Program-made: the position numbers and the translations under genes
From: Ulota crispa
Lineage: Eukaryota > Streptophyta > Bryopsida > Orthotrichales > Orthotrichaceae
Reading direction: 5' to 3'
DNA: 64,000 nt
NCBI GenBank assembly: GCA_963920765.1
Contig: OY987245.1
Location: forward strand, 2,682,727 to 2,746,726
The notes under the pieces: model-generated
Seen by the model: only the letters and a program-made list of their open reading frames with translations
Told to the model about the DNA's origin: nothing
Databases searched by the model: none
In this document: piece by piece, positions 26,411 to 60,679 of the stretch
Layout of the letters: every line of letters begins with the position of its first letter
How positions within the stretch are numbered: position 1 is the first letter of the stretch

Positions 26411-27143
26411 AGTAACCTTTCAACGGCCCTTCACATGCATGTTTGAGGTATTGGATCTAATTTTTTGATCTTGCAATAAACTACAAGTATCAAAGTATTC
26501 AAGTGGCCCATGCAAGTGAAGTAATGGCAAGGTAAGCCAAATGTTATACAAGTGCCTCAAGAGTCTTAATTGGGTGAAACATCATACGGGGTGCGGTGGC
26601 AAGCAATGTCTTACAAGTTACACCTGATCATTACTCATTGCAAACTTCCTTGCATGTGCTTTGTGGTTTAGGGAAATTCACTAGCAAGGGTTCAAGCATG
26701 TTTTAAACCCTTGTCAAGGCAACCCTCGCCAATTGGGTTGGTCATCATTTTTTGCACAATAGCAAATTGAAGCCCTAAAAATTTACATACAAAGACGCAG
26801 AATCTTCAATAATTTGCAAGTATATGCATTCACATCTAATCTTGCTACTCAAAAAATTTAAGATGAATCACAAGCTTTTAGAATTTTATAAAAATCATTA
26901 AACAACTACCTGCCAAAAAATGAGATTTTGTCATCACATGTTGTTTGATCAAATGTTATAATCTCCCATCTCCCACAGTCAATTATTCCCAAAATTTGCA
27001 AGCCGTCCTCTAAGTACATGTTTCACTATTTTCAATGGTTACTTTTTGTTGATCATCCAGTTGATTGAGATACAATATATCAAAGTCATAGGTCCTCCAA
27101 AACCCTTATTTTGGTGAAAACAGCCTAGGCACTTAAGGGTTAA
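26411..27143. mobile_element. TTAA-ended MITE, class A (copy 1)
   Basis: The right end is CACTTAAGGGTTAA (TTAA at 27140-27143). The left end is decayed, GTAACCTTTCAACGGCCC. The body is collinear with 44109-44867 and 53098-53859: GAGGTATTGGATCTAA, GAAGTAATGGCAAGG, GGTTCAAGCAT and TGAGATTTTGTCATCACATG all occur in order. Its right TTAA is shared with the class B element that follows. Confidence 0.75.
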
Positions 27144-27504
27144 TCCTTAAATGTCCGGTGAGTGGCCATGACATGCCCATATAGTGTTTGTACTGTAACT
27201 TCAACAGTGTTTTGATTGATGGGCACCAATAGTATTGCTTCTAAAAGTTTCAAAAGTCAATAGTGCATGCTGACCTCTTGACAATTCCAATAAAGGTAGC
27301 TTGGGACCTACCACCGTAATTTTGAATTTTCTCACAATTAGAGTTACCTAAAAATTTGAGTATATTGGATAAGATTTTTATTTACCTTCTATGACGGATC
27401 ATGTGTTTATGGTTACTTGCGAAAAAAAACAGATGAAAAACAATTTTTTTTTGTTTTTCAAGGTCAAAGGACAGAAAACATCCTCATGAACGTTTAGGGA
27501 TTAA
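27140..27504. mobile_element. TTAA-ended MITE, class B (copy 1)
   Basis: The left end is TTAATCCTTAAATGTCCGG and the right end GAACGTTTAGGGATTAA. At 365 bp it is nearly the same length as class B copies at 43329-43698 and 60310-60679 (370 bp each). All three share CAAAAGTCAATAGTGCATG-like and TGTGAATTTTCTCACAATT-like blocks. It begins in the TTAA that closes the preceding class A element. Confidence 0.8.
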
Positions 27505-27895
27505 TCCAATTGTTTATTATCAAAACATCATATAGCCAATATTTTAGGGAATGGGCAAGCAAAGATCCAAAATCCACCCCTTCATATAACTAGACAGGTT
27601 TCCAATAGTTTTTGTCTTTCATCGATTGATGGTCTTTCAAGTTTGCTCTAGATTTACAACCTCCAACTTTGAAATCAAACCAATTATTTTGCCAAATCAG
27701 CCGGTTAACAATACGCTAACTGCCGGTTCTCCCTAATCGCTGACTATAATGATTAGTAATTACTGTATCTGATATGAAAATGCACAACTTGCCACGAGTT
27801 GATAATGAACATATCTTCTACTAGAGCCAACATAAATACTACACATTGTCCAAGTTTGCTGCATTTTCAAACCAACTCACAAAATTTAGATTATA

Positions 27896-28298
27896 TTTAT
27901 AAAGGGAATTGATATACGCACACCGGAGGGGGTTGATATTTGCAGGGGTAAATTTTAGATTTCTACCATCATAAAGCTGAATTTGAGAGATTTGAATTCA
28001 GATTTGGACTTAGAGACCATGATTTAGTCTAGAACCGCAAAAAAAGTTGCAATTCAAAATCATTCAATCAAAAAGTTTAACTAGGAAAAAAAGTGTTACT
28101 TTCACTTTTGATTGTAAAAAAAAATAAGTTTTTTCATTGAATGTTGTTGAATTGTAACTTTTTTTTGTACTTCTAGATTAAATCATGATCTCGAAGTCCA
28201 AATCTGAATCCAAAGAATTTAGCTTTATGATGGCAGATATCTAAAACTTACCCCGGGGGTGTGCAAATATCAACCTGCATATATCAATTCCCTTTATA
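27896..28298. repeat. Long hairpin repeat, family H (copy 1)
   Basis: This is a near-perfect foldback. TATAAAGGGAATTGATAT at the left pairs with ATATCAATTCCCTTTATA at the right. Inside, TTAGATTTCTACCATCATAA pairs with TTATGATGGCAGATATCTAA. Arms are about 190 bp around a short centre. A diverged copy with the same arm core lies at 43699-44108. It is non-coding; a transcript would be a long double-stranded stem. Confidence 0.85.
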
Positions 28299-28772
28299 AA
28301 ACCTCTAAACTTTACTTTCAAATCATACCCAAAAAGTAAACGAAATTAAATAACGACTGCCTTCAAGAAATTGGTTTTGCAACAACTGAATTACCTAGGG
28401 CCAGAATGGCTACTAGACTCCACTAAACGAATCAACCTAGGCACATTCTCAATTTGATCCATCGAAACATGATGTACAGTACCAGGCAAGCATGAATTAT
28501 CCGGTGCCTTGGTGCAGTTCAAATAACTTCCCATAATATATAGCAAAATTGAAATTTTGTTGTTTTGAATTATAAAAATTGATTCTTATGCAATCTCAAC
28601 CAAATATACTAAATTTTGATTCCAAAAAATCATAACTCTATTTTTGGTGAATTATTTTGTATTAAATTCATGATTTTACATGAAAATTGATCGAAGAAAA
28701 TTGGTGATGAATTTTTTAGATTTGATTACATGGATACATCCATACGCACATTTTCCCTTCTAAAAATAACCC

Positions 28773-29028
28773 CTTAAATAACAAAATTATGTTTGACAAA
28801 GAGTTCAATGTGCAGTGTGGTAAGACCAAAATTTGTAAAATAGATATTTCTTTATGATGATCAATTTATGTTATTTGATTCATACGATGTGACTAAATTT
28901 GTACCTTTGAACATGAAAATATGTTTACTTAGCCAAAAACTAGTTAAAAATTAGAAATATCTACTTTATAATTTTTGGTCTTACCACAACCCACTTTGAA
29001 CTCTTTGTCAATCATAATTTTGTAACTT
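28773..29028. repeat. Small hairpin inside the large foldback
   Basis: AACAAAATTATGTTTGACAA at about 28780-28800 pairs with TTGTCAATCATAATTTTGT near 29007-29025. GTGGTAAGACCAAAA pairs with TTTTGGTCTTACCAC. Arms are about 75 bp. It abuts the TTAA element on its right. Confidence 0.75.
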
Positions 29029-29941
29029 AACCCTTTAAAGACCACAAACATTTTCCCAAAATCCACTAGAAAGTGGGGCAATAAGATTAGATGTGCATTC
29101 GAAACATATATGGACCCAATTTGAATAATCCAACCGTACAAATGTGAAGGACACCTTGTTTGCTGCAATGCATCAAAATTTCAGCTAGATCTACCGTTGG
29201 AGGTGAAATATTATAATGATTGAGTGAGCCATATATGGGAAATCTCTAGTTTTTCATGCTTATGTGGTTTTAAATGGTAGCGCTCCATGCAAGCTTTGAT
29301 TGAGAAGAGTCTTACATTTCTAGAAAGTAGGGTTTTCCACCTTTCCAACAAGACTAGTTTCACTCAAAATAAATAAAAATAGCAATCACAAGGTGTAGCT
29401 AAGTGGACAAAAAGGGTCAAAAAACCCACTTTCTTTGCTACCCTAGAACGGTTCTACAAGAAATTTGATAATTATTCTAGAAAATCCAATTGGTGAAAGC
29501 AATCAAGAATTGGCCTTAAATGTAGGATGAACATTTTTTTAAATAAATTGATAGCATCATTTCAATGGATTCTCAAATAGTACAATTGTACTACTACCGT
29601 ATAGAGAAACAATACAAGCATATTTCTTGAGCAATTTGAAGTTTTTTAAGATTGCACAATTGAAATGTGGCATTCTTCTTGGATGTTTGATGTATTGTGT
29701 TGTTGCTTTGATCCATCTTTGACCAAATATGGATATATATTTTGAGGCCATGATGTATAAATACCATTATTTATCAACTCCCATATCTGATTCTATTGTC
29801 GTTTCTTGGGTTGGATGCAAAATTCTTGTGATCACAAGCGTTCTTCAAGATCATTTTCTAAATTGTTGAGCGGTTTTACTATATAGGCCAAAAACTACTC
29901 TCCCGAACCAAAATATGGTTTGGTGGTCTCTAAAGGGTTAA
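29027..29941. mobile_element. TTAA-ended MITE, 915 bp
   Basis: The left end TTAACCCTTTAAAGACCAC is mirrored by GTGGTCTCTAAAGGGTTAA at 29923-29941, a 19-bp inverted repeat with one mismatch. Its interior is not obviously shared with the other classes. It lies in the centre of the large foldback element. Confidence 0.8.
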
Positions 29942-30258
29942 GAGGGTCCTTTTCAAAAGGGAAAATGTGCATATGGATGTTTCCAACATATCCATGTAAT
30001 CAAATCTAAGAAATTCATCACCAATTTTCTTCAATCAAATTTCATGTAAAATCATGAATTTAATACAAAATAATTCACCAAAAATAGGATTTTGATTTTT
30101 TAGAATCAAATTTTGGTATGCTTGATTGGGATTGCATAAGAATCAATCTTTATAATTCAAAACAACAAAATTTCAATTTTGCTATGTATTATGGGAAGTT
30201 CTTTGAATGGCAGCAAGGCACCGGACAATTCATGCTTGCCTGGTACTGTACATGTTTG

Positions 30259-30590
30259 ACATTCGTACAATATTAAATTCTTCATAGAGCACAAATTACG
30301 TAAAAGTGATCAAGATCAAGTTCTGATCCATCGAGAACAAGTTCTGATCCATCAAAATACCAATATCTGCAGAGCCAAAATATTATTAGTTTAGGGATTT
30401 CCTAAAGATGTTCAATTTCGTAGATAAAGTTAACAATAAGTACGTAAATGAATTGCTTTTACACATTCTTGGTTTCTTGATCGTCGATTGGGAAATGAAT
30501 TTCTAAGAATTATGCCTTAAAAACATGAACCCAGCATTAAGTGCAGTATTAGAAAAACTGGAATCACTGTTAGGTCAAAATCACTGAGCT
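30259..30590. other. Short intergenic stretch
   Basis: I see no gene here. An imperfect direct repeat (CAAGTTCTGATCCATC, twice) lies at about 30318-30355. Confidence 0.4.
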
Positions 30591-31448: not shown

Positions 31449-34400
31449 CTAGCCCTCAGGCTTTGTCTTTGTCCCTGTCATGATCTCCTCAAGATGGAAG
31501 TCCAAGTTCAAGCTTGGAAACCGTTCCAACGAATGAAGGCTACTGTCAGACCCCAACGAGGGGCCCATGCTCAGCATCATTTCCTTCAAAAATGGATCAT
31601 CGTCCAGAGCCGCTGGCTCCTCCTTTACGCATTTTTCGGGAGGTCCCCCTCCATACAGCCGTTGAACGAGCATGCCATTTTCCTTTGGAGAGGTCGGTTC
31701 CACGTGCGAACCGTCTGCCAAGCTGTGTGCAAATTTCATCTGTACCGGTTCTATGTCTGGTCTTGGAATTCTCTTCTTCTTTCCTCGCATAACCTGCAAA
31801 AACACAGCAAAAAGCTCAGTCATCATACCTCCTATAGGAAAAGCGGTTTCAAACTAAGCTTACATTTCAGTAATTCAACAATCACCCTTACAAAGATCCA
31901 CTGAGAAAGTTGCCTAACAAGAAAACGTCATCAACAACCTCAAATCCTCTCTTGTTAGGATGTCAAGACTCTAAGACGCTCAACTGTTCCGCTGACCATT
32001 GAAGTCGTCTCAAGAAATTTACTTACATAACCCCCTTGGTGACTCCTATAAAGTAAGAGTAGATCTCCTTCCACTAGGCGGTGAGATTTCACAAAGTCTC
32101 CTGCAAAGCTCGAAGACAGTAATTTTGATTGTAGTCAGAAACTGGATGTAAACAATTTGGACTTGTTTAAACGTAGACTATCCACCAATGTAAGTAGTAA
32201 TCAAGATATAGATACAGAAGAGAAAGCCTAGAACTGTTCAAATCCATATGAAGTACAATTCCAGAATACTCACCAGTATTCTCCAGTAGATACATTCGGC
32301 TTTTGTTATTTGGCCAGAACCTACTCACACAAAGCATTTCAATAAAAGATTACGGACTTCTCAAATGCAACGAGCATGGAGACCAACTATTTTAATGTTT
32401 GGATGGACCTAGAACACCCAGAAAAATGCATATGATCTTGAACATTAGGTTCATTAGCTTCAGCCATAGTTAAACGACCTAAAGTTTAATTTGTCTAGCA
32501 CCCCCATTACTAGCACCGGATCTTGTAGATGAAGCACACGCGAGCTGAGAAGAACCGTCAAAAAAAACAATATATCCACACTTACGATGAAGCACCCGAA
32601 GTAACTAAGGGTGACGACCCCATTTTAGGCGGAGGAGTTACACTGAAAGAAAACAACAAGCAACAACAACAGCAATTCAAGGATGGGCAAATTATAGAGA
32701 CACGAACCCAGAAATCCTCTTACGTCTCAAGAAAAATCTGAACATACTCGAGATGAAACCTCTACATAGTTCAAAAAACCAAAAGAGAAACTCCGTGGGT
32801 AAACTATCCAATAGTGAACTTTTTTCATCTCACCATTTTCTCAAAAAATCCCAAGGCAAGAAAAAACCAACGCAAAAAACACAGCAACACCAGGCTATGG
32901 AAAAGCACATGGTGCCGCTCGCCACTGATCAGGAAAAGGACAAAAACATAGATGACAGGAGTTACGGACAAGCTCCAGATTACTATTGCCCATAGTACTC
33001 ACTAGAAATAAAATAAAAAGACCAAGAAAATTCAGGAACTATAACAAACTGATCCATACCTGTATCTGAGATTCCAAATATGGCCTGAGTCATAATCTTC
33101 TATCTTTATGGACATACCTCCTCGCATCGCAAGAGAAGGCATGTGCTGCTCTGCTTCTTTCTGCAAGACGGGTAATGAGTGATGAATAGAAAGTTACTGT
33201 CCAAAAACTATTGTACACAAACTACAATGATTAGAGTGCCTGTACTCCCAGCAATCAAGTGGTTGAGAAGCAGCCAACTAACCTTCGGAAGTACTATACG
33301 CCCGAGATTGCCGACATCACTCGGTCGAAGTTCCTTCTGAAGGACCAAAGCAAGAGATTCCGTGTTCTGGCCCTGAAAGAACTTTTAAAAACATCCTTTA
33401 GAAGAAACGCAAGAATATGGAGCATCCTCAAAATCAGAAGATTCCCAAGTAATTATATCCGTAATAGTGGTGCGATTTTAGTAATTGTAGTTCAAGAACC
33501 CAATATTAAGTAAAAACCATAGCTTTGGAAGCTAATGCTCAAATGAAGTAACTTTAGATGCATATTTCTATGGTTTAAAGATTTACGGTATGATATTTTC
33601 TTTCTACTCAGACAATCTGTTAACCTTCCTTCAAGTTCCTAAACGATACGAACGAAGCCACTTTTGACCATTTGGAATTGAACCGGACGTACTTGTATAG
33701 CCAGGAAAGGCCACTTCTATATCAATAAGAATTGGAATTAGTCGTTTAAGAAGCTTCAAGGAAAATTAAAAATTGTACTAGTAGAAAAGAGAATGTCATA
33801 AATCTAACAAAAGGCCTAAGGAGTTCCTGTTGTTCGCTAAAAAAATCCAGTATCGGCATTCTACTTATAGTTCAAAAACTTCAGTGTTCCTCAATAATCC
33901 GTTGAAAGTCCCAATATTTCAGACATCTCAAGAACGGTAACGCTTACAATCAATGAAGATAATAATTTTTCAAAAAAACTCTCATTTTTGGTGTCACTAA
34001 TAATGAGAGGGACTCTCAAACATATTGCTGAACTCTAAAATTGAGTTGACGTCTACAATTTGTGCTGCAGATCATTACTGTAAAGTGCTCCAACGTACCT
34101 TCCGTCCAACAGTGGCAGAAGAATTTTGGAAAGTGGTTTGGGCACCAGACGACCCCGACTTCTTCAGTGTTGATGGTGCAGCACAATTATTCAACAATGT
34201 TCCACTGCCTACAGAAGCAGGGGTTGTTGCAGCATGACTAGCTGCTCGTGATTGACTGGATTGCCTCTGCCGGGCCATTCTGTGTCTTCGTGCTGCTCTT
34301 GTAGCCATGGCCGGAGTCTGCTCTACAGAAGGCATGCCAATATGTGCACTGGTGAAGGGCATAACTGGAGGCTGCAGCGGCATTCCATAACTCAGCTGAG

Positions 34401-37498: not shown

Positions 37499-38576
37499 GG
37501 GTCGCTTCACACTATGGTCGACCAAGTCGAGAGGTTTTGGGATTGAGTGGCCAAAGAAATCTACCAAAAATAAGTTGTAAAATGTTGTTTTTTAACATCT
37601 TTGGTAGTTTTTAGTGTGAAGTGGCCTCCAAAAGCCAAGTTCAAAGGCCAAACTTTTGGCAATGAACATCTACGGCCTCTCAACTTGAAAGGTCATAGTG
37701 TGAAACCTCCAAATGCCAAGCCCAAATTTCAAACTCAAACTTTTTAGAAAAAAACTTGTATGCTGTATTTCTTGTGCAATTTTGGCAATACGTTGGAAAA
37801 TGGGTTTAAAGCATATATAAAAAAATTTGACCAAAAAAAATTTGGATTCATTTTTACAAAAATTGTAAAGTGAAAGGTATAGATGAATGAAAGATATAAC
37901 TAATATGCTAATAAGTTTTGGAAGACTTTAAAAATTGTTAATCCCAATGGCGAGAATGCTCTAACAGATAATTAATATCTTTAATTTTCATTTTCATTTG
38001 AAAATATTCAAAATTGAGAGTAGAAATAACTTTATATATTTTTTCTACCCTCTTCCTACCTTCATTGCCCGCAAAATAAAATTCCTTTGAACTCTTACCT
38101 CATTATTTGGAATTGAGTGATTCAACTTTTTTTTAGTAGGTATCAGTCTATACAATTTTATAAAAAATGAAAATAAATAATTTAGAATATATTTTTTGCT
38201 GCCCGATTTGACATTGAAATTGAAAAACCTTTATAACTTTTGCATTACTTATACGAATGACATGAAATAAAGCTTCACATGTAGATTATGATGAGTAGCA
38301 TCCATCCTAAAAATTTCATGAAAAATTTCCAAATTATGAAGTCAATAGAGCCTGCCTGAGTTCTCATAAAGCCCAAAGTGGGCTCCTTGGTCCTTTAGGG
38401 GTTAATCCAAAACTTTTCTTGAGAGGCCGTCATTTTGGATTAAAAGATGATGTCATAAGGGGTGATGGACTTTGGACTTTGGCCTCTAGTGTGAAGGGTC
38501 AAGAGGCCAAACCCTTGGTTTCTTGTTGGTGGAAATCCATAGTCTCTCAACCTTTGGCCATATTGTGAAGCAACCC
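37499..38576. mobile_element. Harbinger-like MITE with GGGTYGCTTCACA ends
   Basis: TTA duplications lie at 37496-37498 and 38577-38579. The inverted ends are GGGTCGCTTCACACTATGG and CCATATTGTGAAGCAACCC (17 of 19 match). Both subterminal parts repeat short blocks such as GTGTGAAG and GAGAGG. A right-end sequence TCCTTTAGGGGTTAA at 38391-38405 inside it shows a class C TTAA element nested here, whose left end I could not find. A related left end, with TTA just before GGGCGGCTTCACACTA, is at 53888-53906. Confidence 0.7.
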
Positions 38577-39571: not shown

Positions 39572-39696
39572 TTAACCCCTAAAGACTCAAGCACTGTTTT
39601 TAGGCAATATAGTGATTTTGGGCAGTTCATTACCTATGGATTTTTTTTATCTCTTTTCTTTTAAATTTTCACATATGATCTGTCTAAGGAGTAGCT

Positions 39697-40598
39697 TTAA
39701 CCCCTAATAGACTGTAGCTTTTATTTTGTCAAAAGACACTCAAAACTATTATATCTATGACAAAGAGTAAAGATGATTGTAAGTTGGTCTTTTGCATATT
39801 TAACCATAGGATCTTGTATTAGATTGGTATATGAATGTACAAAATAAAATAAAAAAACGTAGACCGCACAGATTGCAAGATATTTGCATCTAAAGTGTAA
39901 AAACAAACTTTTTTGATTAGATTATCTGACTTTGAATTTTTTGAATTTGAAAGTTTTGTACCATAGAGATTGGAAGTTTAAATCTTTATGCTCAAAATTT
40001 GAGTTGAGAATCTTTGGAAAAATGTTAAAAAAAAAAAACGTTTAATTTTCATTCTTAAAACAAATTAGGTAGAAGAAGGTATGAGATTGAACAAAAACTT
40101 AGATTGTGAATAAACCCTATAATGGAATTGAAACACAATAATGCCAATGGTGAGATTGTTTTAGCAAGCAAACTTCACCTTTTCCAACAATTTTTTTGAA
40201 ATAATGTTAAATTTGCATTCAAAAATAAATTTTGTAAGTTATTTTTTCAAAAAAAAAGCTCAAGTTGCCCAAAAAACTAGATTGTCCATAACTTTCTCAT
40301 AACTAGTCCAAATGGAATGAATCAAAGTTTCAAATGTAGACAAAAATATAATCTATAAGAAAGAAAGAAAATCTAGTTTTTGTAAAAAAACTGCTGTCAA
40401 AACTCCTCAAATTTTTGCTTATTGGAGCATAACTTTTACTCCCGAGCATAGATTGGAAGAAAATTTATATCTCGCAAAAGCCAATGTGTTTTTCTATCTT
40501 CAAAAAGAGTTTCAAAAATTAGGAAAAAAACTTAGGCGTAGGTACCTGCCTAAAATCCCATTTGTCCCCCAAAGGGACAATGGTCCTTTAGGGGTTAA
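39697..40598. mobile_element. TTAA-ended MITE, class C (inner copy)
   Basis: The left end is TTAACCCCTAATAGACTG and the right end AATGGTCCTTTAGGGGTTAA. The right subterminal block TTTGTCCCCCAAAGGGACAA is shared with the element ending at 56510. It is possible that the right end instead belongs with the outer left end at 39572. Confidence 0.55.
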
Positions 40599-41088
40599 GG
40601 TCCAACAATTTTCATGACTTTTGACTCCATGGTTCAAAAGTCATTGCATGATAAAAAAAAAATTTGAACTCCAAACAACTTGGGCAACTCAAATAACCTC
40701 TTTAAAAATATCATCATTATTATTATTATTTTTAAATTTTTTCTTTGAACTTATATATATGTGGGAAGCTTTGGATTATTCAATTTCTATAAATGAAATG
40801 AAAATTATGAGAAGTTTTAGTTTGCTCATAGGTATGGAGTCTTTCAAAACCATACCTACCCACAAACTAAAAATTCCTATAACTTTCATCTCATCAATCA
40901 AAATCAAACAATTTAAAGCTTCCCACATACATATAAGTCTAAAGAACCAATTCCAAAAATAAATAAATAAATAAATAATGTAATTTTTAAAGAAGTTTTG
41001 CGAGCTACCTAGAGTTCAAAAAATCTATGTATCATGCAATACCTTTTGAAATGTGTAGTCAAAAGTTATGAAAATTGTTGGACCTTAA
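40595..41088. repeat. Hairpin repeat abutting a TTAA element
   Basis: TTAAGGTCCAACAATTTTCA at the left pairs with TGAAAATTGTTGGACCTTAA at the right (41069-41088), and CATGACTTTTGACT pairs with AGTCAAAAGTTATG. Inside, GAAATGAAAATTATGAGAAG-type sequence pairs with a mirrored block near 40880-40900. The left TTAA is that of the preceding element. Confidence 0.8.
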
Positions 41089-41190
41089 AGCTACTCCTTG
41101 GGCACATCATATGCAAAGATTTCAAAGAAAAAAGATGAAAAATCCATTTGTAGTGAGCTCCCTCATAAGGACAATGGGCTTTTAGGGTGG

Positions 41191-43328
41191 GTTGATCATT
41201 TTTAAGACGGCCATTTATGAACTTAGGAATGTAAAAAGTCACTTGAACTTTGGCTCATTTGAAAGAGAAACAAGTTGGCTATGTAGTGTTGTTTTCAAAA
41301 TTAGAAAAAGAGTCACCATTGGATTTACATAAATTTTCAAACCATGGGTGGTCTTGGAGTTGTAGTGTTAAATTTTGGCCCTGGATTTGGGAAAATATTC
41401 TATTTTACTCACAACTTTTGAAATTTAAGGGTGAAGTGGTCACTATTGCAAGACCATTTTCTCATTCCTTTTATACCCTAAAAGTACAAGACTTGTTTCT
41501 ATGCGTGTGGAACTTGATTACCTTGAGAATGAGTGTAAATGCCAACTTTCTAAAATGTTGTGTGTCCAAAAGAGCCAATCAAAGCACAATTTCAACTACT
41601 CCAAAATATTAGTTTCCTTTGAGGTTTCCTTGTAGTATCCTTTACATTTTTGTTATAATCTTCCAATCTAACCCTTGGATTGAAACCAAACTTTATAAAG
41701 ATGATAAGGGCTTTCTACAAGATCTTATGGTTACTCTGGCCTAAAAATAACTCATCATACTTCAAGCTTCACCCTTTCATAACTTGCAAAATCAAGATCC
41801 AAAACACCTTCAAATGGCCAAAAAATTTAAGGGTTTAATTGCTGCCAAATGCAATCTCTTGCATAAAATTTCGAATGGCCAAAACGTCTTTTATCTACAT
41901 TTAGCTTTTTCAATTTCATTTCAAGTACAACAGACCATAAATCTGATCACACAGGTAACCATTTTTTTTTTCTTTTCCACTCATTGGTCTTGCAATTCTC
42001 ATGAATGTATTTCAAAAATCGAACCAACACATTCTCCAATTGTTTTTTTTTTTGTTTTTTTATAAGGTTTGACATATACTGCAAATCTTGAATATTCTAG
42101 AAAACTATATAAAAACATTTTTTATACATACAAAATAGTTGATAAATATGTTTTCTTACAACTTCGGCATCTGTTTTATTTAAAATTTCATATTAAGCTT
42201 ATCCTTGTATAGAATACACCAAAGAAGTTCAAATACAACAAATATTAGCAAAGATGTGAGTGGGCGATGGTAACAAGATATCATCTCAATGATTTATATT
42301 AGTTAATCAATCAATGGATCTTCAAAGCACTTTATCTCCAAATAACGTCATCAATTTACCAAATTTATTTTTATATTTTCTAAAATACACTCACGGACAA
42401 AGTTTCAGTAGATGGACAATCGTTGTAGAATATGTTTTTAAATAATGGTACCACTTAAGCTTAATACATGACAATTACACTTCATATCAATTAATTAACA
42501 TAATGTAGGAGGAAAATTTCCATTTTGTGTGTGTGGATAGTTTAGCGTATTTATAACAAAATCCATCCATGATGATTAAGTTTATCATGTGGTGTGGCAA
42601 CTTTGATTTAAGTTCAATAGATTATTCTTTGGCCATGTTTGTTTCATATCCACCAACCGATCAAAAACATCCACAAGATTAGAAAAGCTAGAAGGTGTTT
42701 ACTAAACAAGATTTGTTTTATTTGATGTTTGCTTGTAAGTTTTTATAAATAGAACCCCCTCCTAGCATTTTGATTGTATTAGGCATGCAAATCTAGTTCT
42801 ATGAATATTTTTCAATATCATTTTATTATTTTCTTCTTCTTGGAATGTAAACTCAAATGAGATGAAAATCACCCATTTGATGTAGTGAGTATATATGAAA
42901 TGCGCACATGTATTGTATATACTATTGTTGGTTTAGAGCATTTGTATTGGTACATGAAAAACACAAAAAAAAAATTTACAATTTCCTTCCAATGCCTACC
43001 TTCCAAAGCTTGGAAAGCTCTCAAATTTTTATCTGTTTTATGCAAATATATGACATTTAGATTTTTGTTGACTTTAGTAAGAGTTTTTTATTTTCTGGTT
43101 CTTTGTTTTGAGAATAAATGTTATTGAACTGGTAGGCTTAACATTGTAAATACAATATATGGAATATGGCTTTCAAGTTTTGTTTGAAAGTCACTTACAA
43201 TTCACCTAAATATTGCTTTACAGTACGTGTATTGAGTTTTAGAAAATTTGGACCACCCGTAATTCAGCAAATTAAAGTGGAGCCTACACAACCTTAGAGA
43301 ACTTTTGGTGAGAAAATAAAAGGAACCA
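41191..43328. other. AT-rich intergenic DNA
   Basis: About 2.1 kb with no supported gene. A 120-codon plus-strand frame at 41250-41612 has no recognisable domain. Poly-T/A runs are common around 41960-42060. I see no transposon termini. Confidence 0.4.
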
Positions 43329-43698
43329 TTAACCCTTGAACGTCGGATTGGTGGCAGTGCATACTTTCTACAGTGGTTTCTACAGTGATGTGGCAAGTGC
43401 TCACCCATTAAAATTTTGTTTCTTAAAGTTACAAAAGTCAATAGTGCATGGTGCCCTCATGAAAAGTGCAAGATGGGCAGCATGGGACCTAACAGCATGT
43501 TTGTGAATTTTCTCACAATTTAGGTTATTGAAAAATATGAGTGCATTTGTTGAGATCATTTTCTGCCTTCCACGATGCACCATGTGTCTATGATCACTTC
43601 TACAAAAAAGTTAGTTGAAAAACAACTTTTTCTATAACTCAACTTGTTTTTGGGTGGCCAGAGGACAATTTTTGTCCTTGTCAACGTTTAAGGGTTAA
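43329..43698. mobile_element. TTAA-ended MITE, class B (copy 2)
   Basis: The left end TTAACCCTTGAACGT is mirrored by AACGTTTAAGGGTTAA, in a 370-bp element. It is collinear with 27140-27504 and 60310-60679. It is followed immediately by a hairpin and then a class A element. Confidence 0.85.
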
Positions 43699-44108
43699 GA
43701 ATGGCATTGATATGTGTACCACACCTTTTGAACTACTGTACCACACCCCGGGGTAAATTTTAGATTTCTACCATCAAAAAGCTGAATTTGAGAAATTTGA
43801 ATTCAAATCTAGACTTAAAGACCATTATTTAGTATAGAGTCATAAAAAGTTGCAATTCAACAACACCCAATGAGAAAGTTTAGCTAGGGAGAAAAGTGTT
43901 ACTTTTACTTTTGTTTGTAAAAAAAGATAAGCTTTTTCATTGGGTATTGTTGGGTTGCAACTTTTTATGGTTCTAGGCTAAACATGGTCTATGATTCAAA
44001 TATGAATTCAAGTTTCTCAAATTCAGCTTTTTGATGGTAGAAATCTAAAATTTACCTCAGGGTGTGGTGTAGTAGTTCAAAGGGTGTGATACACATGTCA
44101 ATTCCCCA
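43699..44108. repeat. Long hairpin repeat, family H (copy 2), between two TTAA elements
   Basis: ATATGTGTACCACACCTTTT at the left pairs with AAAGGGTGTGATACACATGT at the right. TTTAGATTTCTACCATCAAA pairs with TTTGATGGTAGAAATCTAAA. Arms are about 195 bp. It fills exactly the space between the TTAA that ends one element (43695-43698) and the TTAA that starts the next (44109-44112). It shares its arm core with 27896-28298. Confidence 0.85.
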
Positions 44109-44867
44109 TTAACCCTTGAGCGCCCCAAAGACAGTATACTTCCTCTAGGGATTTCAAGAGCTTATTTGAGGAACCGGATCTAACTTTTTGGTATTACTTT
44201 ACATTACAATTATGAAGGTATTCAAGTTGTCCATGCCAATGGAGTAATGGCAAGGAAAGTCAAATGTTGTACAAGTGATGCACAAGATTTGATTGAGTGA
44301 AACACCATATAGGGCGTGGTGGCAAACAACGTTTTACAGGCTGCAACCGGTCATTATCCCTTGCAAGCTTCCTTCTATGTGCTTTGTGGTAGTGGGAAAG
44401 TTGTTGGCAAGGGTTCAAGCATATTCTAGACCCTTATTATAGCAACCATCACTGACTGTGCCGGTCATTGTTTTCTGTTTAATAGTGATTTGAAGCCCTA
44501 AAACTTGACATAAAAAGAAGTGCTATCTTCAATAATTTACAGGTGTGTGCATTCACATCTAATCTTGTTGCTCATAAAATTTAAGAAGAATCGGAGGCTT
44601 ATAGAATTTTGTAAAAATCATCAAATAGCAACTACCGACCAAAAATAAGATTTTGTCATCACATGTTGTTTGATCAAGTGTTATAATCTCCCATCTCCCA
44701 TGGTCAATTGTTCCCAAAATTTGCAAGCCATTTTCTAAGTAAGTGTTCCACTATTTTCAATGATTAGTTTTTGTGAATCATCTAATTGATTGAGATATGA
44801 TGCATTAAAGTTGTCGATCTCCAAAACCCCAATTTTGGTGAAAACAGCCTGGGCGCTCAGGGGTTAA
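44109..44867. mobile_element. TTAA-ended MITE, class A (copy 2)
   Basis: The left end TTAACCCTTGAGCGCCC is mirrored by GGGCGCTCAGGGGTTAA, a 17-bp inverted repeat with one mismatch. Length 759 bp. This is the best preserved of the three class A copies. Confidence 0.88.
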
Positions 44868-45062
44868 GAAATGTCTTGCTTATCTTGGGAAAATAAAGGT
44901 GATTATATCTACTCTAGGATTGAGACTAAAGTACCAAAATAAATATTTTTCTTATTGGAAGATACATGGGCGGCAATCTTCAGTTTGTTTTGAGTGAAAC
45001 AGTAAATTTTCTACATTTATCCATGTTAAGAGAAATATAAAATTTTCCCATATTCTTATATT

Positions 45063-45532
45063 TATATGAAGGGAAAATATAACAAATACCCCTCAAATAT
45101 CAAACACACCCTTGTATTATTTGAAGTATTATAAATACCCCTGATTTTGTGTAAGGATATCAATTATATCCCTAGTTATTTTTGAAAACATTTAACACTC
45201 TTAGTTTTCTTGTGCATCTTTACTAAGAAATTTGTAAGTCACATTTGCACCAAAGATATTGGTAAAAAAAAGCGTGTTGTTTAGTTAATGCAATGGCTTT
45301 GGCCACAATAAACTTAAATGCAAAAGTCCTGATAAAGCTTGAAGAGCTTCCCTTCAAGATTTGACTTACATTAAACTTGCATCTAGTTTATGCAAATTTC
45401 ATTGTCATTACAATACTTACAAAAAGTTGCACCTCTTCAAAACCAGGGGTATTTTTTATATTTCAAATAATAGAGGGACATATTTGACATTTTAAAAGAA
45501 TTGGGAGATGTTTTTTGTATTTTCCCTTATAT
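45063..45532. mobile_element. MITE-like foldback of 470 bp
   Basis: GGGAAAATATAACAAATACC at the left has a diverged mirror, TGTTTTTTGTATTTTCCC, at the right. Further in, TATAAATACCCCTGATTTT pairs with AAAACCAGGGGTATTTTTTA. It is non-coding. The family is not assigned. Confidence 0.65.
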
Positions 45533-46050
45533 AAATTATAAAATTTTTGTCATATTTGGTTGTAAAATCAATAAAAAATATAAACACCTTGCCAAAAACA
45601 ATTCTCTAGAACTATGAGTTTTTTTCTTTTCAAGAGTCCAATTCTTTTTAATGTTTATTAGCTTTTGGCAAAAAAAATATTTTCATGGATAACATATGTG
45701 TTTGTATTATGTTTCATATGTGAATCAAATTTAATGTGTATTGGATTGAAAACAGTAACTGTTGCCCTAAATTTTGTTCACTAGCATGTGTACCTAAAAT
45801 ATATTGTTGCAATGCATTTTTCATACAAGAACAATAGAATTGTTCCATTCATGCAAGGAGGTTGGAAAAGAACTTTTATTTATTTATTTATCTCTTCTTT
45901 CTTTTAAATTTTTTTGCAGCTTTTTAACTTTAAAAAAAGAAGGACAAGTAAGTGAAACTAATAATAAAAGTATCAATTAGACCCAATATTTCTCATGCCA
46001 GTGACTTAAGTTTTAGCAAATAGAACTAGCTAACTTTGATGCCCTATTTT

Positions 46051-46281
46051 TTAACCCCTGAGTGTCCAAAGTTGTTTTAGGGTTTAGGAGAAAATGGGGG
46101 TTTAATGGCCACCATAGCTTGGAAAATTACACCCAAAAAAAGTGACTAAAGGATTTGAAAAGGGACTACATTCTCTGCTGATGGGGACTAGCCACAACTA
46201 TTTTCACTGTACAAATCAAGAGTGAGATCAAGTTGTGGTCCCGAACGACAGGATCTTGTTGCTGGGGCACTCAAGGGTTAA
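46051..46281. mobile_element. TTAA-ended MITE, 231 bp
   Basis: The left end TTAACCCCTGAGTGTCC is mirrored by GGGGCACTCAAGGGTTAA. The interior is unlike the other classes, though one block (GGTTTAGGAGAAAATGGGGG) resembles the right end of class A. Confidence 0.75.
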
Positions 46282-50669: not shown

Positions 50670-50907
50670 TTAACCCTTAAACGACCAACCGACCATAGTA
50701 CATAGTATGTACGGTGCTGTATAATTGGCATTTGCTACCAAAAAAAATTCATTTGGGATCTTTACTAGCTCTCTAGAACCGCATTGATCTATATTCTAAA
50801 TTCTTTATTAATCTCAAATATAGTTAAGGTGTGGATGCGTTCTAAATACAAGAAAAATATATTGTATTATATTGTATACTATGGTCAGTTGGTCATTTAA
50901 GGGTTAA
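50670..50907. mobile_element. TTAA-ended MITE, 238 bp, long terminal inverted repeat
   Basis: The left end TTAACCCTTAAACGACCAAC is mirrored by GTTGGTCATTTAAGGGTTAA. The pairing continues through the GACCATAGTA block to about 30 bp with two mismatches. This is the cleanest terminal repeat of the TTAA group, so it is probably among the youngest. Confidence 0.88.
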
Positions 50908-52138: not shown

Positions 52139-52141
52139 CAC

Positions 52142-53097: not shown

Positions 53098-53859
53098 TTA
53101 ACTCTTGATCGCCCCATAGGACCGAAAGTGTCCTCGCATGATTTCAAAGGTTTGTTTGAGGTATTGGATCTAAATTTTTGATCTTGTTATAAACTACAAT
53201 TATGAAGGCATTCAAGTTGTTCATGCTAGTGAAGTAATGGCGAGGCAAGCCAAATGTTTTACAAGTGTCTTAAGAGATTTGATTGGGTGAAACACCATAC
53301 GGGGCGTGGTGGCAAGCAGCGTTTTACAAGCTGCAACTGGTCAGTATTCTTTGCAAGCTTCTTTGTGTGTGCTTTGTGGTAGCAAGAAAGTTGTTGGCAA
53401 GGGTTCAAGCATATTCTAGACCCTTATTGTGGCAACCCTCACAAATTTCCCGGTCATCGTTTTCCATGCAATAGTAGTTTGAAGCCCTAAAACATGACAT
53501 AAAAAGAAGTACAATCTTCAATAATTTACAAGTGTGTGTACTCACATCTAATCTTCCTACTCACAAAAATCCAAATGAATCAAGGGCTTATAGAATTTTG
53601 TAAAAATCATCAAATAGCAATTGCCCACCAAAAAGTGAGATTTTGTCATAACATGTTGTTTGATCAGATGTTATAATCTCTCATCTCCCACAAACAATTG
53701 TTCCCAAAATTTACACACCATTTTCTAAGTAATTGTTCCACTATTTTCAATGGTCACTTTTTGTGGATCATCCAATTGACTAAGATACAACGCATCAAAG
53801 TTGGAGAACTTCCAAAACCTTGGGTTTTGGTAAAAATGGCCTGGGGGCTCAAAGGTTAA
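53098..53859. mobile_element. TTAA-ended MITE, class A (copy 3)
   Basis: The left end TTAACTCTTGATCGCCCC has a right counterpart GGGGGCTCAAAGGTTAA. Length 762 bp, collinear with 44109-44867. Its right TTAA is also the start of the CCCCTCATTGC-ended element that follows. Confidence 0.85.
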
Positions 53860-56545
53860 CCCCTCATTGCTTGAGGTCTAATGAGACTTAGGGCGGCTTC
53901 ACACTAGTGGCCAAACTCCAAAGGCCTTCATCCTCCAAATGTCTACATGGTAGCACTTTATCATCCAAGGTTGACTGCTTCTCGGCAATAGTTTGGGTCA
54001 AGCAAAAATGAAGATCCAAACTATGGTTGAGAGGCCGTCACATTTTTGGCAAAAAAAACATATCATAATGTTTAAAAGTACAAACTCAATCACAATGTAT
54101 GAGTCAAATAACAAAAACTAATTTCCATGAAGAAATCTGTATTTTACTAAATTTGGTCATGATGACCCTAACATTAAAATCTCTATAGAAGGAATTTTTA
54201 AACTTTTTGGAAATGTTTGTTTGAAAGAAAGATGTGCGTATGGATGTCTCCTACATATCCATGCAATCAAATCTCAAAAATTCATCACCAATGTTTTTTA
54301 ATCAACTTTCTTGTAAAACCATGATTTTGACACAAAACCATTTACCACAAATAGAATTTTGGTTTTTAGTAACTGAAATTTGGTATGCTTGATCATGATT
54401 GCATGAGGATCATATACAAAAAATATGAGGATAAAATGCCAATTATATTCTTTGTTACACCAACTTTTTTGAATGCCATAAAAGGGTGGTACGTAGACTT
54501 GTTGGAGGGTACTATACAGTCTTGTAGAGTGCTAGTTGCAAATCATGTAGATAATAATTAAGATCATTCGACCACATACATTGAAAGGTTATAATGTCTT
54601 GGAGTTGAAAAAAGGTGTTAAAATTTTCCTAAAGACACATTTGGCACTGATTTTGATTCCTAAACTTGCTCACATGAAAAAAATTAAAATACAAAGTGCT
54701 TAAAAGTAATACATATACACATTGGTGAAAGAAAATATCATTCAATAGACTTATTGTGTTTGTAAAATCTATTTGAAATGTCAAAAAGCAGTGAAAAAAG
54801 TAGCCAAAATTTACATCTATGGCTAAACCTCCCTCTTCTAAAATGCTTCTCATTCAATCATAACTTTTTGGATTGATATGAAACTTTAACTACAATAACA
54901 AGACTATTATGCGCAAATTTTACAATAAAAAATAGTGAGGATAAAGTTTGTATGAAGAAGTTAAAAGCCACTGAAGTACAATGCAATACAAAAATGTGTG
55001 GGTTTTGAACTTTGAGTTGCACCAAAACATTCAAAATAGCTTGGATTGATATGGAAATTGTATTACAGTTACAAGATTTTAAGGGGAAAACATCCCACCA
55101 AATGTAATTGAAAAAAAAATTAATGAAAAAAATAGAAGCCCTTGAAGTTGCAGCCATCACAACCAATGTGGTGAACTCAAATTGACCTTGTGAACTTTGA
55201 ATGGCTTTCACAAACTCAATACATCTTAGATTGGTCTGAAAATTTTACTATAGAAAATAGATTTGTATGTTCAACTTTACCAACAAATTTTATCAAATTC
55301 AAACGATACATGCAAAAGTTACAGCAATTTAAATTTCACTGCTAGAGTGTTAACCCCTAAAGGACCAAGCACATTTTTTCTCAAAAAGCACTCAATACTG
55401 CCATTTCTAGTGTTTTGATCCCAAAAACAACTTTTTTTCACCAAACTTCATATCCAACCATAAAATCTTGTAGAAGATTTATTCAAGAACATACTCTGAA
55501 ATTTTTGTGAAGTTTGACCATATGGATTGAGAGATATACTCATCTGAAGTAAGTACATAAATTTTTTTTACCTATGCCCAAAATTTTCAGATGCCTTCGA
55601 CCACATATGGTGAACAATTTTCACACTAAGGGTGCTAAAGAGTTTTATCTAACATACTCTAAATCATGTCAAGCACATTTCCTCAATTTTCATGACTAAG
55701 AAAGACATGGAACATTCCTTTCTTGGCCTTGCATTGCAAATATGTGCCTGACATTCACACTACATTGGAGCTTTTTGCAAACCAAATTCCCAAAAGATTA
55801 TCTTGAAACAAAAAAAATCCAAACAATAGACTGAAAGAGTTTACCTTCATTGACAAGCACAAAAAAGTTGAATTTTTTAAAAAAAAAGCCCAAATTGGGC
55901 ATTGGGTAAACCACCCAAACAAATTAAAATAAAAAAAAAAGACCCAAACTGGGCCTTGGGTAAGCCACTCCGGGACCACCCCAGGGCCACCCCCACAGGG
56001 CCGGCCTTGCCAAGTTTTGTGGGACCGCCTCCACATGCCTTTTTTTTAATTCAATTTTTTGGTTTTTGTTTTTAAATTTTTTGTTGCAATTCATGCGGGC
56101 CACCACTCCACTTGGTCTTACAACTAAGGACCTTTTTCCATATGGTTTCCAAACTTAGATTTCAAGAGAATATTAGTTGTTCTTTTTTTGATTCCTATCC
56201 TACCAATAAAAGATCCCATTTTGCAACTCTTTGCCCCATTTTTGGCAAAGTTACCCACTTTGCTTGCCCCTCTTAAAAGTCAAAGAATTTTGGCATACCC
56301 AAGCTGCCCCTCAAACTAAAATTCACATGTTTACTCTTGTAACTTCTAAATCGTAAATCGGAATTCAACAAAATTTATTTTCCCAAGTAGCCCTTGCAAA
56401 ACTCTACCTTTGGAGAAAATATTATAGAATTTGGTGAAAATTTGTAGTAGCTTGACCCTACCCAAAACCCCATTTGTCCCCCATAGGAACAAGTGGCCTT
56501 TAGGGGTTAAAGGAGGACACTTTTTGTCCCCTTAGGCAATGAGGG
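53856..56545. mobile_element. CCCCTCATTGC-ended element, left copy of an inverted pair
   Basis: It starts TTAACCCCTCATTGC at 53856 and ends with GGCAATGAGGGGCTAAC at about 56529-56545. From about 54480 to 55345 it is an inverted relative of 56650-58140 (for example GAGAAGCATTTTAG-type sequence against CTAAAATGCTTCTC at 54839-54852). It carries nested insertions: a TTA-preceded GGGCGGCTTCACACTA end, a solo arm of the 28465 foldback (about 54230-54420) and the class C element at 55350-56510. Confidence 0.6.
55350..56510. mobile_element. TTAA-ended MITE, class C, 1161 bp
   Basis: The left end is TTAACCCCTAAAGGACCAAG and the right end AAGTGGCCTTTAGGGGTTAA, with CCCCATTTGTCCCCCATAGG just inside the right end as in the copy ending at 40598. 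It includes an unusual GC-rich patch at about 55970-56020 (GGACCACCCCAGGGCCACCC). No coding capacity. Confidence 0.88.
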
Positions 56546-56593: not shown

Positions 56594-58202
56594 TAATTAC
56601 CCCTCATTGCCTAAGGGGGTGGTTTCTATCCTCTAGCAATCCATCATTCCAACTTGAAGTGGTGTAACTTTTGCATTGATTGTCCAAATTCAATAAAATT
56701 TGTTGGCAAAATTACGCATACTAGTCTAGTTTCTATGATAGAATTTTTAAATCAATCTAAGACATATTTAGTTTGTGAAAGGGTAAGAATCCGTTTGGGG
56801 TATCACTTTTTGGACACACTAATTAGGTTATTTTTATTTAAAACCTCCAAAGTTTGTCTAATTTGTTCTTTTTGATTAAGTAAAAAGACCCTAAAATGAG
56901 AAAAAAAAAATCATGCACCTCGATGGAATCAAGATTTATGTGTCTAAAGATTTTTTATTAAATTTATTAAAAAATTGGATCCATTCATAGGTGTAAAAAA
57001 AATCCCAAATTTTGGGATTTGCAGGCATTATAGTGCACAATTTATTAAATTTTTACTGATAAAACAAATTATTTTGTACTCTACACAAGTAATTGTAGGT
57101 CATATTCAAAAAATATATTAAAATAAAATTGTTTGATATTTTAAATGCTTGATTTTGGGGATTCTAGGTAAGTGTGACAAAACTTATTTTTTCAACTAAA
57201 AAATCAAATAAAATTACTTAAAAATCTTTGGTTGTAATCAAACTTTTTTCTTGATACGCTCTAAGTGTAGAAAATTAAAACCTCATTTGTTGAAGTCTTA
57301 CTTTATTCTAATTAAAAACTGGATATGTTTGATACACCAACACATAGTGACATTGTAAGTTGGACAGCTTTTTTGGATACCCCAACCATAAACTTGCCCA
57401 AAAGCCATTCAAAGTTCATAGGGTCAATTTGGGTTCACTCACATTGCATTGTGATGGCTCCAAATGGTTGCAACTTTGGGGGTTTGTATCTTTTTCATCA
57501 AATATTTTTTCAATAAATTTTGTTGGGTATTGTTGCCCTTAAAATCTAGTAAATGTGGTAAAATTTTCATGTGAATCCAAGTTTTCTTGAATGTCTGGGA
57601 GCAATTCAAAGTTCAAAATCCACACATTTGTGCATTGCAGTGAACTTTGGTGGCTTATAACTTCTTTGTACAAACTGTTTTTACAATACGTGACATTGGA
57701 AAAGTTGCACATACTAGTCTAGTTGTTGTGGTTAAAATTTTGTATCAATCCAAGAAGTTTTGGGTGAATGAGAAGCATTTTAGTAGAGGGAAATTTAAAC
57801 ATAGATGTGATTTTTTGCTACTTTTTTCACTTTTTTTTTTTTTACATATCAAAACACAAACAAAATGAGTATATTGATTGATATTTTTTTTCACCAATGT
57901 GTTTTTATATTGGTTTGAATCACTTTATAGACTCAATTTTTTTCATTTGAGTAGGTTTAGAAAATCAAATTTCACCTCCAAATGTATTTTTAGGAATAAA
58001 AACATCTTCTTTCAACATTAAAACACTATAATCTTCCAATCTATGTGGTAAAATCACCCCAACTTTGATCCACATCATCTAAACATGCACACTACAAGAT
58101 AGTACAGTTGAGATTTTCATACTCCATTGGCATTGAGATATACAACACTTGAAAATCAAGGATGCTTTTAGGCCTCTTTGGACCTTAGGGGATGAGGGGT
58201 TA
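56594..58202. mobile_element. CCCCTCATTGC-ended element, right copy of an inverted pair
   Basis: It begins TTAATTACCCCTCATTGCC and ends GGGATGAGGGGTTAA. Read on the minus strand it is collinear with 53856-56545 once nested insertions are removed. The left copy lacks a stretch of about 600 bp at 56790-57390. There is no intact coding frame, although short frames on matching strands are more frequent here than elsewhere. Confidence 0.6.
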
Positions 58203-58219
58203 ATTGGCAAGGGAGCCAG

Positions 58220-58560
58220 CACTTGGCAGCAGGGAAAATTTCTTGACAAAAATTAGCCTAAATCTTACCTCAAATGCTACATGACCACTCCTACACTAGA
58301 AAAATTTGAGAAAAAAATGAATGAAATTGCTAAAGCCCTCCTCAAATAAGTATCACGTTTGCCAGATAATGAATGAAAGATGCTAATATTAATAGATATC
58401 ATGGATGAACGTGCACACATTGTTAATTCTGTCCAGTTCTGGCCAGTTTTTCCTTACCTGCTTTGCATTGTGGGGTGCGTGTCGCTCTACTAGCGAAACT
58501 ACAAAAGATGAACCCTGCTCGGCAGCAGGCAGAGTCCTGATTTTGGCTTTAATCCGCCAC
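58220..58560. repeat. Interspersed repeat E (copy)
   Basis: CTTGACAAAAATTAGCCTAA, TCTTACCTCAAATGCTACAT, TTTTTCCTTACCTGCTTTGC and GTGCGTGTCGCTCTACTAGC occur in the same order as in the other copies of repeat E. It starts right after the preceding element. Confidence 0.65.
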
Positions 58561-58759
58561 CGAAAAAGCGCTGGTAGCGTGTTTAAGTTAAGGGATGGAG
58601 GGCAGAAGTCCTCCCAGCCCTCCAAATGGCGGGCTCTGAAGTCATTCCAGGGCTAAAAGTACCGAAAGCATTTTTGCTTTTTTGCTTTATTGATGTTGCC
58701 ATGCACCTATTCTTATCTGGGCCATTTTCCAAATGTACAGTACTGGAGCAACTTGCCAG

Positions 58760-59152
58760 AAGGTAGAAGCACCCAAAAGTGACACTTACTTTAGATGTGG
58801 TAACTTGGAGGGTCTTTTGAGAATTTGTTGGTATGGGCTTGTTAGGAAATGGGTGTAGATGCATGCAAAATTGTTTTTGGAATTTTCTGAGATCGCATAA
58901 ATAAATTACAAATTGTTGAAGGTAATTCCCTAGATTGACCTATTGTAGACACTAGACCCTTGAAAAAGCAACAACAAAGAGACCATGTCACATCCAATAA
59001 TAAACCACCTATACAATTTCTATTCCCTTATGTTAACTTGCGTGTCTGGTTTGGGTGCATGAGGATCTTGTTTGGGTGCAAGAGCATTAAGCTGTAGGTT
59101 TATTTATAGATGTTACTAAACGGCTAGTGTCACTTTTGGGTGCTTCTACTTT
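58760..59152. mobile_element. MITE with GTAGAAGCACCC terminus (copy 2)
   Basis: GTAGAAGCACCCAAAAGTGA at the left is mirrored exactly by TCACTTTTGGGTGCTTCTAC at the right, with a 24-bp arm overall. The body is the reverse complement of 12166-12542. It lies directly against a Harbinger-like element on its right. Confidence 0.85.
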
Positions 59153-59153
59153 A

Positions 59154-59489
59154 GAGCATCTCCACTAGTCCAGACTTGCTCAAAGTTTTCCATCTGGTTT
59201 GGCAAGGCCTGAAGGCTCTTAATCTCCACCCATGCTCTTTGAAAAGGTGGCTTTACACTCCAACATACTCCATAAATAAGCAGTTGACCACTTATCTAGG
59301 GAAGTACAGAATAAAGCACACTAAACTTAGGGTGCATAGTGCATGAATAGTGGCTTAGAGAGTGGCTTGCTAGACTCGCCAAATAAGAGAGTTTGAGAAG
59401 GTTTTGAGAGGGTTTTGAGAGGGTTTTGAGAGGGGCCTGGCTACTTTTCATCCACTTTGAGCGAGCCAGAGCCACTAGTGGAGATGCTC
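59154..59489. mobile_element. Harbinger-like MITE with GAGCATCTCCAC ends (first of a pair)
   Basis: The ends GAGCATCTCCACTAGT and ACTAGTGGAGATGCTC mirror perfectly. TTA lies on both sides (59151-59153 and 59490-59492). A threefold repeat of GAGGGTTTTGA precedes the right end. It is an inverted relative of 19150-20064. Confidence 0.88.
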
Positions 59490-59492
59490 TTA

Positions 59493-59910
59493 GAGCATCT
59501 CCACCGGACCAGCCAAATTTTGACTCATGAGAACAGCTTGCCAGGGCCTCGGGAGGCTAATTTGACTAGGATTGCTTCTCAATCTCCACCAATGCACACT
59601 AGCTAGGGGCTGCATCCTTGATTTCTGCAGCTCTAATGTCATTTGATGGCATGCAAGCATGGGTCGTGGGGCCCAAAGCAAACCAAATTAAGGTCAATGG
59701 GCTCAAAGTAGGAATCCAGAAGCACAAAGCAGCGGGATTTCAGCTCGCTATATTCTCTTAGAACCTCGGAACCTCCCCAGGCCCGAACCCCCAATTGGTG
59801 AGGCCAATCAAGAAACTGACCGAGACCGGACATCAGTGGAGATCTAATTCTCCAAACTTACCTCCGACCCCGCTATCTACCCATGTTTGGAGTCACCAGT
59901 GGAGATGCTC
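59493..59910. mobile_element. Harbinger-like MITE with GAGCATCTCCAC ends (second of a pair)
   Basis: The ends GAGCATCTCCACCGG and CCAGTGGAGATGCTC mirror each other. TTA lies at 59490-59492 and 59911-59913. It shares only its termini, not its interior, with the element before it, and uses the same TTA as its left duplication. Confidence 0.85.
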
Positions 59911-60119
59911 TTATTACCACATTCTATGGAGGATCCAATTTCAGCGCAGGAGGTTGGGGAACTTGGGGGCAGCCCAAAGAACTGACGGCCAGTAGAATTC
60001 CCACACAATAGGGACATGAAACCACAAAACAAATGCCTCCTCCGGCACAGCTGTAAAGTAAATAAAAGTGCAGATTCAAAGGTCGACCTATAATCGCCGG
60101 AGCCAGGGTGAACTGGCCC

Positions 60120-60309
60120 CCTCATTGCCGGCCCTCCCCCTCATGAATGGATGAGGCCCTGGAGCTCGGTTTACTGCTTTGTGAGTAGTTTGTGGGGCTA
60201 GGGTGAAAGAGCTCCGCTTTTTCGCATTTCTAAAACTGTGAGGATTTTCAAATTTATCATCATGAGAATGAAATTGGGAATTTAAAATATGCATCTAGAA
60301 TCAAAGTCC
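60120..60309. repeat. Interspersed repeat R, left part before a TTAA insertion
   Basis: CCCCTCATTGCCGGCC, GGGGCTAGGGTGAAA, TCAAATTTATCATCATGAGA and GAATCAAAGTCC align with 50475-50669. After the TTAA element (60310-60679) the repeat resumes with TTAATTGACCAACTCCAAAA, matching AAAACTGACCAACTCCGAAT at about 49237-49256. Confidence 0.65.
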
Positions 60310-60679
60310 TTAACCCTTACACACTTGGGCTCATAGCTGTGCCCTGCCTTGCATTGTACAGCTACAATGCTTAGGCTGTGCCCAACTTGTAGTATTGTTG
60401 CAAAAAGTGGAAAAAGTCAATAATGCATGCTGTCCACATGAAACTTGTAAGAGGGCAAGAGAGGACTTATCAACCATGGTTGTGAATGTTCTCACAAATT
60501 TCAGTTTTGAAAAACATGAAGACTTTCAATCAATCCAATTTTGGCACTCAGTGGTGAAGAACCTTGCAATGACCACTTTTTTTTGAAAAAATTGAATAAT
60601 TTTTTTTTTTTTTCCAACCCCAGATTGTTTTTTTTGCACCAAAGGACAATAATTGTCCTCTTCGACCTTTAGGGGTTAA
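60310..60679. mobile_element. TTAA-ended MITE, class B (copy 3)
   Basis: The left end TTAACCCTTACACACTTGGG has a right counterpart TTCGACCTTTAGGGGTTAA. Length 370 bp, the same as 43329-43698. It is inserted in repeat R at the position used by the unrelated element at 50670. Confidence 0.82.

Follow-up and report, generated by a model that had tools for sequence, protein, structure and literature searches.

The window analysed here, a stretch of 64,000 nucleotides from Ulota crispa contig OY987245.1 (274.8-Mb assembly, 157 contigs), contains a series of short elements with TTAACCC-type ends, which an earlier note, made from the letters alone, had ascribed to piggyBac-like miniature inverted-repeat transposable elements (MITEs). 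The twelve elements listed there sum to 7,744 bp, or 12% of the window. For ten of them, TTAACCC-type ends lie at the coordinates given. The other two have one damaged end each: the left end of 12962-13899 (no strand assigned) is degenerate, and 26411-27143 has no recognisable left end, being ~26 bp shorter than its class. Three ends come in addition to that list, namely an unpaired TTAACCCCTAAAGGACC at 38405 (-), an unpaired TTAACCCTTAAACGAC at 3102 (-), and one at 39572 (+).

When the window was compared with itself, the proposed grouping of these elements survived in part. Class A (26411-27143, 44109-44867 and 53098-53859, all on the + strand, the second with both ends intact) is collinear at 80-82%, as had been proposed. 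The members of class B (27140-27504, 43329-43698 and 60310-60679, all +, the last being the weakest) align over parts, at 72-77%, and are not collinear throughout. A third class, C, was rejected as a single family because the interior of 29027-29941 (+) is unrelated to those of its three supposed relatives, with which it shows no match in this self-comparison. These three (39697-40598, 55350-56510 and 12962-13899) have their ends and short internal blocks in common. We treat 29027-29941 as the window's representative of a separate 915-bp family. The remaining two elements are singletons: 46051-46281 (+), which has the same kind of ends, and 50670-50907 (+), which has terminal inverted repeats of ~39 bp (87%).

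Two of the elements show a particular arrangement. The 39697-40598 element (+) is inserted in the left arm of an apparent foldback element at 39572-41197 (no strand assigned), whose left end reads TTAACCCCTAAAG and whose right end is degenerate, so that its end coordinate is approximate. The 55350-56510 element (-) is of an internal-deletion type. The window also holds long foldback (inverted-repeat) elements of other families, at 28472-28772/29944-30253, 54783-55157/57464-57838 and 43703-44105, with arms that are 75-92% complementary. A composite element spanning 44109-46281 was considered and not accepted, the flank match to locus L014 extending only ~25 A-rich bases beyond the junction.

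Abundance and age of the elements

The end pattern TTAA[CT]4T[AGT]A is found at 28 sites in the window (13 on the + and 15 on the - strand), against 2-8 sites per shuffle in 15 second-order Markov shuffles. Genome-wide, the strict end TTAACCCYTRANNGNCC is present at 13,212 + 13,113 = 26,325 sites, versus 1 + 2 for the backward control, and the looser TTAACCCYTNA at 32,705 + 32,717 = 65,422 sites, versus 1,711 + 1,743 = 3,454. If ends pair, this excess of ~62,000 ends amounts to ~31,000 element equivalents, a count that misses decayed ends. The window has 22 TTAACCCYTNA sites, and the genome-wide count predicts 15; its end density is thus nothing unusual for this genome. One could argue that the motif merely reflects chance or simple repeats, since TTAA is frequent in AT-rich DNA (4.4-6.4 per kb). 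However, the shuffled and backward-motif controls, together with the existence of full-length copies with fixed borders, refute this reading, to which we attach a negligible probability.

First-look genome candidates numbered 2115 for class A (represented by 44109-44867), 2399 for the 915-bp family and 1428 for 55350-56510, and 40 of them were scored per family. Leaving aside the copy in the window, the class A copies among the 40 scored (of 2115) are 85-88% identical, mostly end to end, versus 92-94% for the 39 next best of the 40 scored copies (of 2399) of the 915-bp family. These families therefore differ in age. In copies of 55350-56510, ~517 bp at one side and 300 bp at the opposite side are frequently retained around different interiors. 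One copy of this type (G000:C9:6692254-6698305) lies in two parts 4.9 kb apart that overlap by ~5 bases, which represents either an insertion into the copy or a larger member.

Elements can also abut head to head on one common TTAA. In the window, this is seen at 27140-27143, where the right TTAA of the class A element 26411-27143 is also the left TTAA of the class B element 27140-27504, and there are 320 strict junctions of this kind genome-wide. Based on end count and TTAA density, we estimated by hand that ~100-145 would occur at random. Because clustering could account for this 2-3 fold excess, we do not claim a preference for insertion beside an existing element.

Target sites, transposases and the link between them

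The earlier note had anticipated empty sites with a single TTAA. We joined the flanks of filled sites with one TTAA and compared them to paralogues, which yielded six usable cases. A 4-bp target fits all six, the empty paralogue reading exactly TTAA in three and a variant of it in the other three. The clearest case is 39697-40598, since the other arm of its foldback host (40901-41162, -) shows this site unoccupied, with one TTAA at 41085-41088 and a gapless alignment at the site. For 29027-29941, the window itself holds an empty paralogue with one TTAA, at 28584-28851 (-), and when locus L060 is compared to L061, over 69 query bases, the empty site is again TTAA. In a further case, L068, a copy of the 915-bp family sits inside another copy, and one TTAA restores a gapless alignment of 915 columns. 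Among fetched copies of two families, TTAA is intact at 22 of 25 left and 24 of 25 right ends (46 of 50 ends). Five comparisons were dropped: 27140-27504 matched its own junction, 44109-46281 has the ends of two elements, 50670-50907 gave three ambiguous paralogues, the site is TTTT in the weaker L018 paralogue of 29027-29941, and the two L066 paralogues (70-71%) have sites unlike TTAA.

A profile search of the genome with PF13843 (DDE_Tnp_1_7), the piggyBac transposase domain, produced 120 match rows with a best E of 1.3e-73; as these come from 116 scored of 528 candidates, the list is incomplete. The same profile gave no match in 14 control genomes, which may or may not include plants. The catalytic aspartates of piggyBac are D268, D346, D447 and D450. 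In L011, the aspartate motifs DE, DN and GVDxxD line up with those of piggyBat; in many other copies, at least one of these motifs is gone. L011 matches piggyBat (9c0f) at 2.6e-24 and piggyBac (6x67) at 7.6e-20 in the PDB. A C-terminal motif of the C-x2-C...C-x2-C...C-x3-C-x4-H type is visible in L003 and in the T22 element; for the one in L003, Pfam gave nothing with E up to 1. The earlier note had envisaged one transposase acting on many elements. Instead, there are many families, with pairwise identities as low as 26-30% among 30 host transposases and with end variants of their own. The short elements of the window belong to tens of thousands of non-autonomous copies that coexist in this genome with many decayed piggyBac transposase genes.

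These transposases are bounded by the same ends as the short elements, as the earlier note had supposed an autonomous source would be. Four loci could be extended to both ends, giving elements of 5027, 5026, 5102 and 5360 bp with TTAACCC ends, except that one of the eight ends reads TTCACCC. Two of the four are 90.5% identical, the similarity stopping at their borders. More generally, 20 of 30 loci have a TTAACCC on the expected strand at a distance of 1.3-2.2 kb beyond the transposase domain, versus two of 30 on the wrong strand, in flanking DNA that is only 1.5 kb long in four of the 30. Of three further, stop-free loci, which were inspected with regard to domestication, two have such an end downstream. 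Related transposases carry related ends, as in L017, L018, L026 and L030, or in L002, L021 and L024.

Two window elements have long stretches in common with transposase elements. In 55350-56510, the initial 517 bp align at 74.8% (E 4e-91) with the final 516 bp of the L003 element; in 12962-13899, the final ~360 bp align with the 3' ends of L017, L026 and L030 (74-77%). Both alignments run to the terminal base. The 3' end of L003 is in turn collinear, in short blocks, with those of L017, L026 and L030, so that the stretches shared with the window elements are transposase-element sequence rather than chance neighbours. Hence, the interiors of these two elements derive in part from transposase elements.

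Together, these findings leave little doubt that the window elements, which comprise MITEs and internal-deletion derivatives, are non-autonomous and belong to several piggyBac families of a moss-like plant, and the piggyBac assignment of the earlier note is well supported by transposase, ends, 4-bp target and shared terminal sequence. In the mechanism that we envisage, relatives of 5.0-5.4 kb in the same genome, with the same CCC(C/T)T-type ends, would supply the transposase, which would bind the ends of short copies in trans, excise them seamlessly and insert them at TTAA, so that each inserted copy is flanked by one TTAA at either end. Class A, class B and the 915-bp family would likewise have been moved by transposases of this kind. 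That each transposase family has its own end variants explains why elements are alike in ends and unlike in interiors.

Several observations weigh against this interpretation. At the target sites, the empty paralogue is not TTAA in three of the six comparisons: for L064, five of five paralogues are variant (CTAA, CTAA, ATAA, ATAA and AAAA); for L068, the window copy has TTGA at the site position; and for 55350-56510, CTAG stands at the site in the paralogue, and there are indels in its vicinity. Small gaps lie near the site in three comparisons, that is, one base for 29027-29941, two bases adjoining the site for L060, and the indels of 55350-56510. The filled sites of L064, L068 and 55350-56510 have TTAA on both sides while their empty relatives read CTAA, ATAA, TTGA or CTAG, and such non-TTAA empty sites can be later mutations or imperfect targets that were repaired to TTAA. 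As for the transposases, nearly all copies are broken, with 10 of 120 PF13843 rows free of stops. Moreover, no TTAACCC end was found in the downstream DNA examined for eight of the 30 loci, and in two more the end lies further out (L004, and L014 with TCAACCC).

Also on the negative side, class A, class B and the 915-bp family have no long interior match in the 30 transposase loci examined, the similarity being confined to the outermost bases; class B matches near L021 and a 915-bp family match near L016 are situated past the transposase element or separately from it and seem to be independent insertions. This would suit a scenario in which some or all of the MITEs belong to another TTAA-targeting superfamily, such as Kolobok or Sola3, the piggyBac transposases being a separate set in the same genome. 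Kolobok too is described as duplicating TTAA, yet the termini given for it, 5'-RR..YY-3', differ from the CCC..GGG seen here (PMC9587614, consulted in part). Furthermore, ends of the same type flank the piggyBac transposases, with which two window elements share their long terminal stretches. On the grounds of ends and shared terminal sequence, we consider this scenario very improbable, and retain the piggyBac assignment.

An upstream coding domain and the origin of the transposases

Three of the transposase families have in common a coding stretch of ~85 residues, 27-39% identical, which is located 0.7-1.05 kb into the elements, after the 5' end and before the transposase domain (L031:2703-2966, L033:2692-2955 and L034:2589-2807). 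It has no Pfam match above cut-off, nothing in the PDB matches it up to an E of 10, and it was not found among the retrieved transposase homologues, many of which are fragments. A genome search with this domain returned 44 matches, 25 of which have a PF13843 row at most 6 kb downstream on the same strand, a lower bound because the PF13843 list is incomplete. With strands flipped, none of the 44 did so, and 0.06 would be expected on average at random. This shows that the upstream domain belongs to these elements. We speculate that it recognises the element ends.

That the host is a land plant, as the earlier note had it, is supported by a CDPK encoded in the window. This protein, whose gene lies at 14763-16496 (-), has its best named full-length matches by identity in Physcomitrium (79%) and Ceratodon (75%). 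At 75%, the liverwort Calypogeia equals the latter, with a smaller part of the query aligned; sequences without a species name are closer (86-88%), and a longer Quercus protein (56%) ranks first by score. From this single protein, we take the host to be a moss. A related CDPK gene lies in the opposite orientation at 6544-8235 (+), with a C1-domain gene between the two at 8955-9854 (-).

Homologue searches with the transposases returned 25 and 114 proteins, of which two and three carry a species name, all animals (Solenopsis, Galleria, Littorina, Ctenocephalides and Dysidea). At face value, this would suggest a recent horizontal transfer of piggyBacs from an animal into this plant, followed by a burst, yet only five of the 139 listed proteins are named. 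The host families are as divergent as 26-30% identity, and nearly all of their copies are decayed. In addition, in a midpoint-rooted FastTree tree of 107 sequences (30 host transposases and 77 database proteins with a minimum length of 340 aa), the host transposases are without exception interleaved with 24 unnamed database proteins in one group of 54 (support 1.0), with no named animal inside. A recent transfer is thus improbable, an old one conceivable. As most entries are unnamed and plant annotations often omit transposons, absence from other plants is not demonstrated. Unnamed relatives reach 78% identity across most of the query, and may, at a guess, come from other mosses.

In our broadest proposal, mosses carry an old, plant-resident branch of piggyBac, consisting of ~5-kb elements with the conserved upstream domain, which would have radiated into many families and given rise to a DNA-transposon group that ranks among the most common in this genome. 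The domain would then be a second working part, involved for example in end or target recognition, that animal piggyBacs lack. We give this proposal an even chance.

Comparison with known systems

The piggyBac element is best known as an animal transposon. The moss elements resemble piggyBac and piggyBat (PDB 6x67 and 9c0f) in their TTAA target, their CCC(C/T)T ends and a DDE_Tnp_1_7 domain whose aspartate motifs align; in two of them a cysteine-rich C-terminal motif is visible. Ends of piggyBac elements begin CC(C/T)T according to PMC2872659 and PMC10813416, and both window and transposase-element ends fit this. In contrast to piggyBac, given as 2.47 kb in PMC10813416, the moss elements measure 5.0-5.4 kb, reside in a plant, have a conserved upstream coding domain, and show 26-30% identity between host families. 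Coral CMITEs, as described in PMC2872659, are similar to the short elements: they duplicate TTAA, have CC(C/T)T ends, are related to a piggyBac-like transposon, and occur in nested and tandem arrangements. They differ in being ~100 bp long and present in ~1600 copies in a coral, versus 0.2-1.2 kb and tens of thousands of ends in a plant.

Among plants, the MITEs surveyed in 207 genomes, four of them bryophytes, are likewise short, high-copy, non-autonomous DNA transposons, but with other targets and other transposases, and the main text of that survey, as far as consulted, has no mention of piggyBac or TTAA (PMC12550479). PiggyBac is included, with no detail in the part seen, among seven MITE superfamilies in angiosperms (PMC10004981), and plant piggyBac MITEs have therefore been named earlier. 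It also appears in the repeat tables of Ceratopteris (1230 copies, 0.00%) and Stipa (one copy of 75 bp), where the label is alike but the amounts are negligible, with no transposase or end shown in the portions seen (PMC6890710, PMC8319324). In the accessible literature on piggyBac and bryophytes, mosses, Physcomitrium or plant MITEs, we found no report of abundant piggyBac in a moss, an earlier description in subscription papers or Repbase being possible; PMC10619864 was set aside because its topic is "expression piggybacking."

If plant pipelines are blind to TTAA elements, a large class of moss repeats has been left unclassified. Natural plant piggyBacs are now available as a counterpart to the animal enzyme that plant engineers employ, and how long the superfamily has existed in land plants becomes a directly testable question. 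Set beside the animal transposons and coral MITEs, the kind of element described here is already known; its plant host, its scale and its extra domain are what set it apart.

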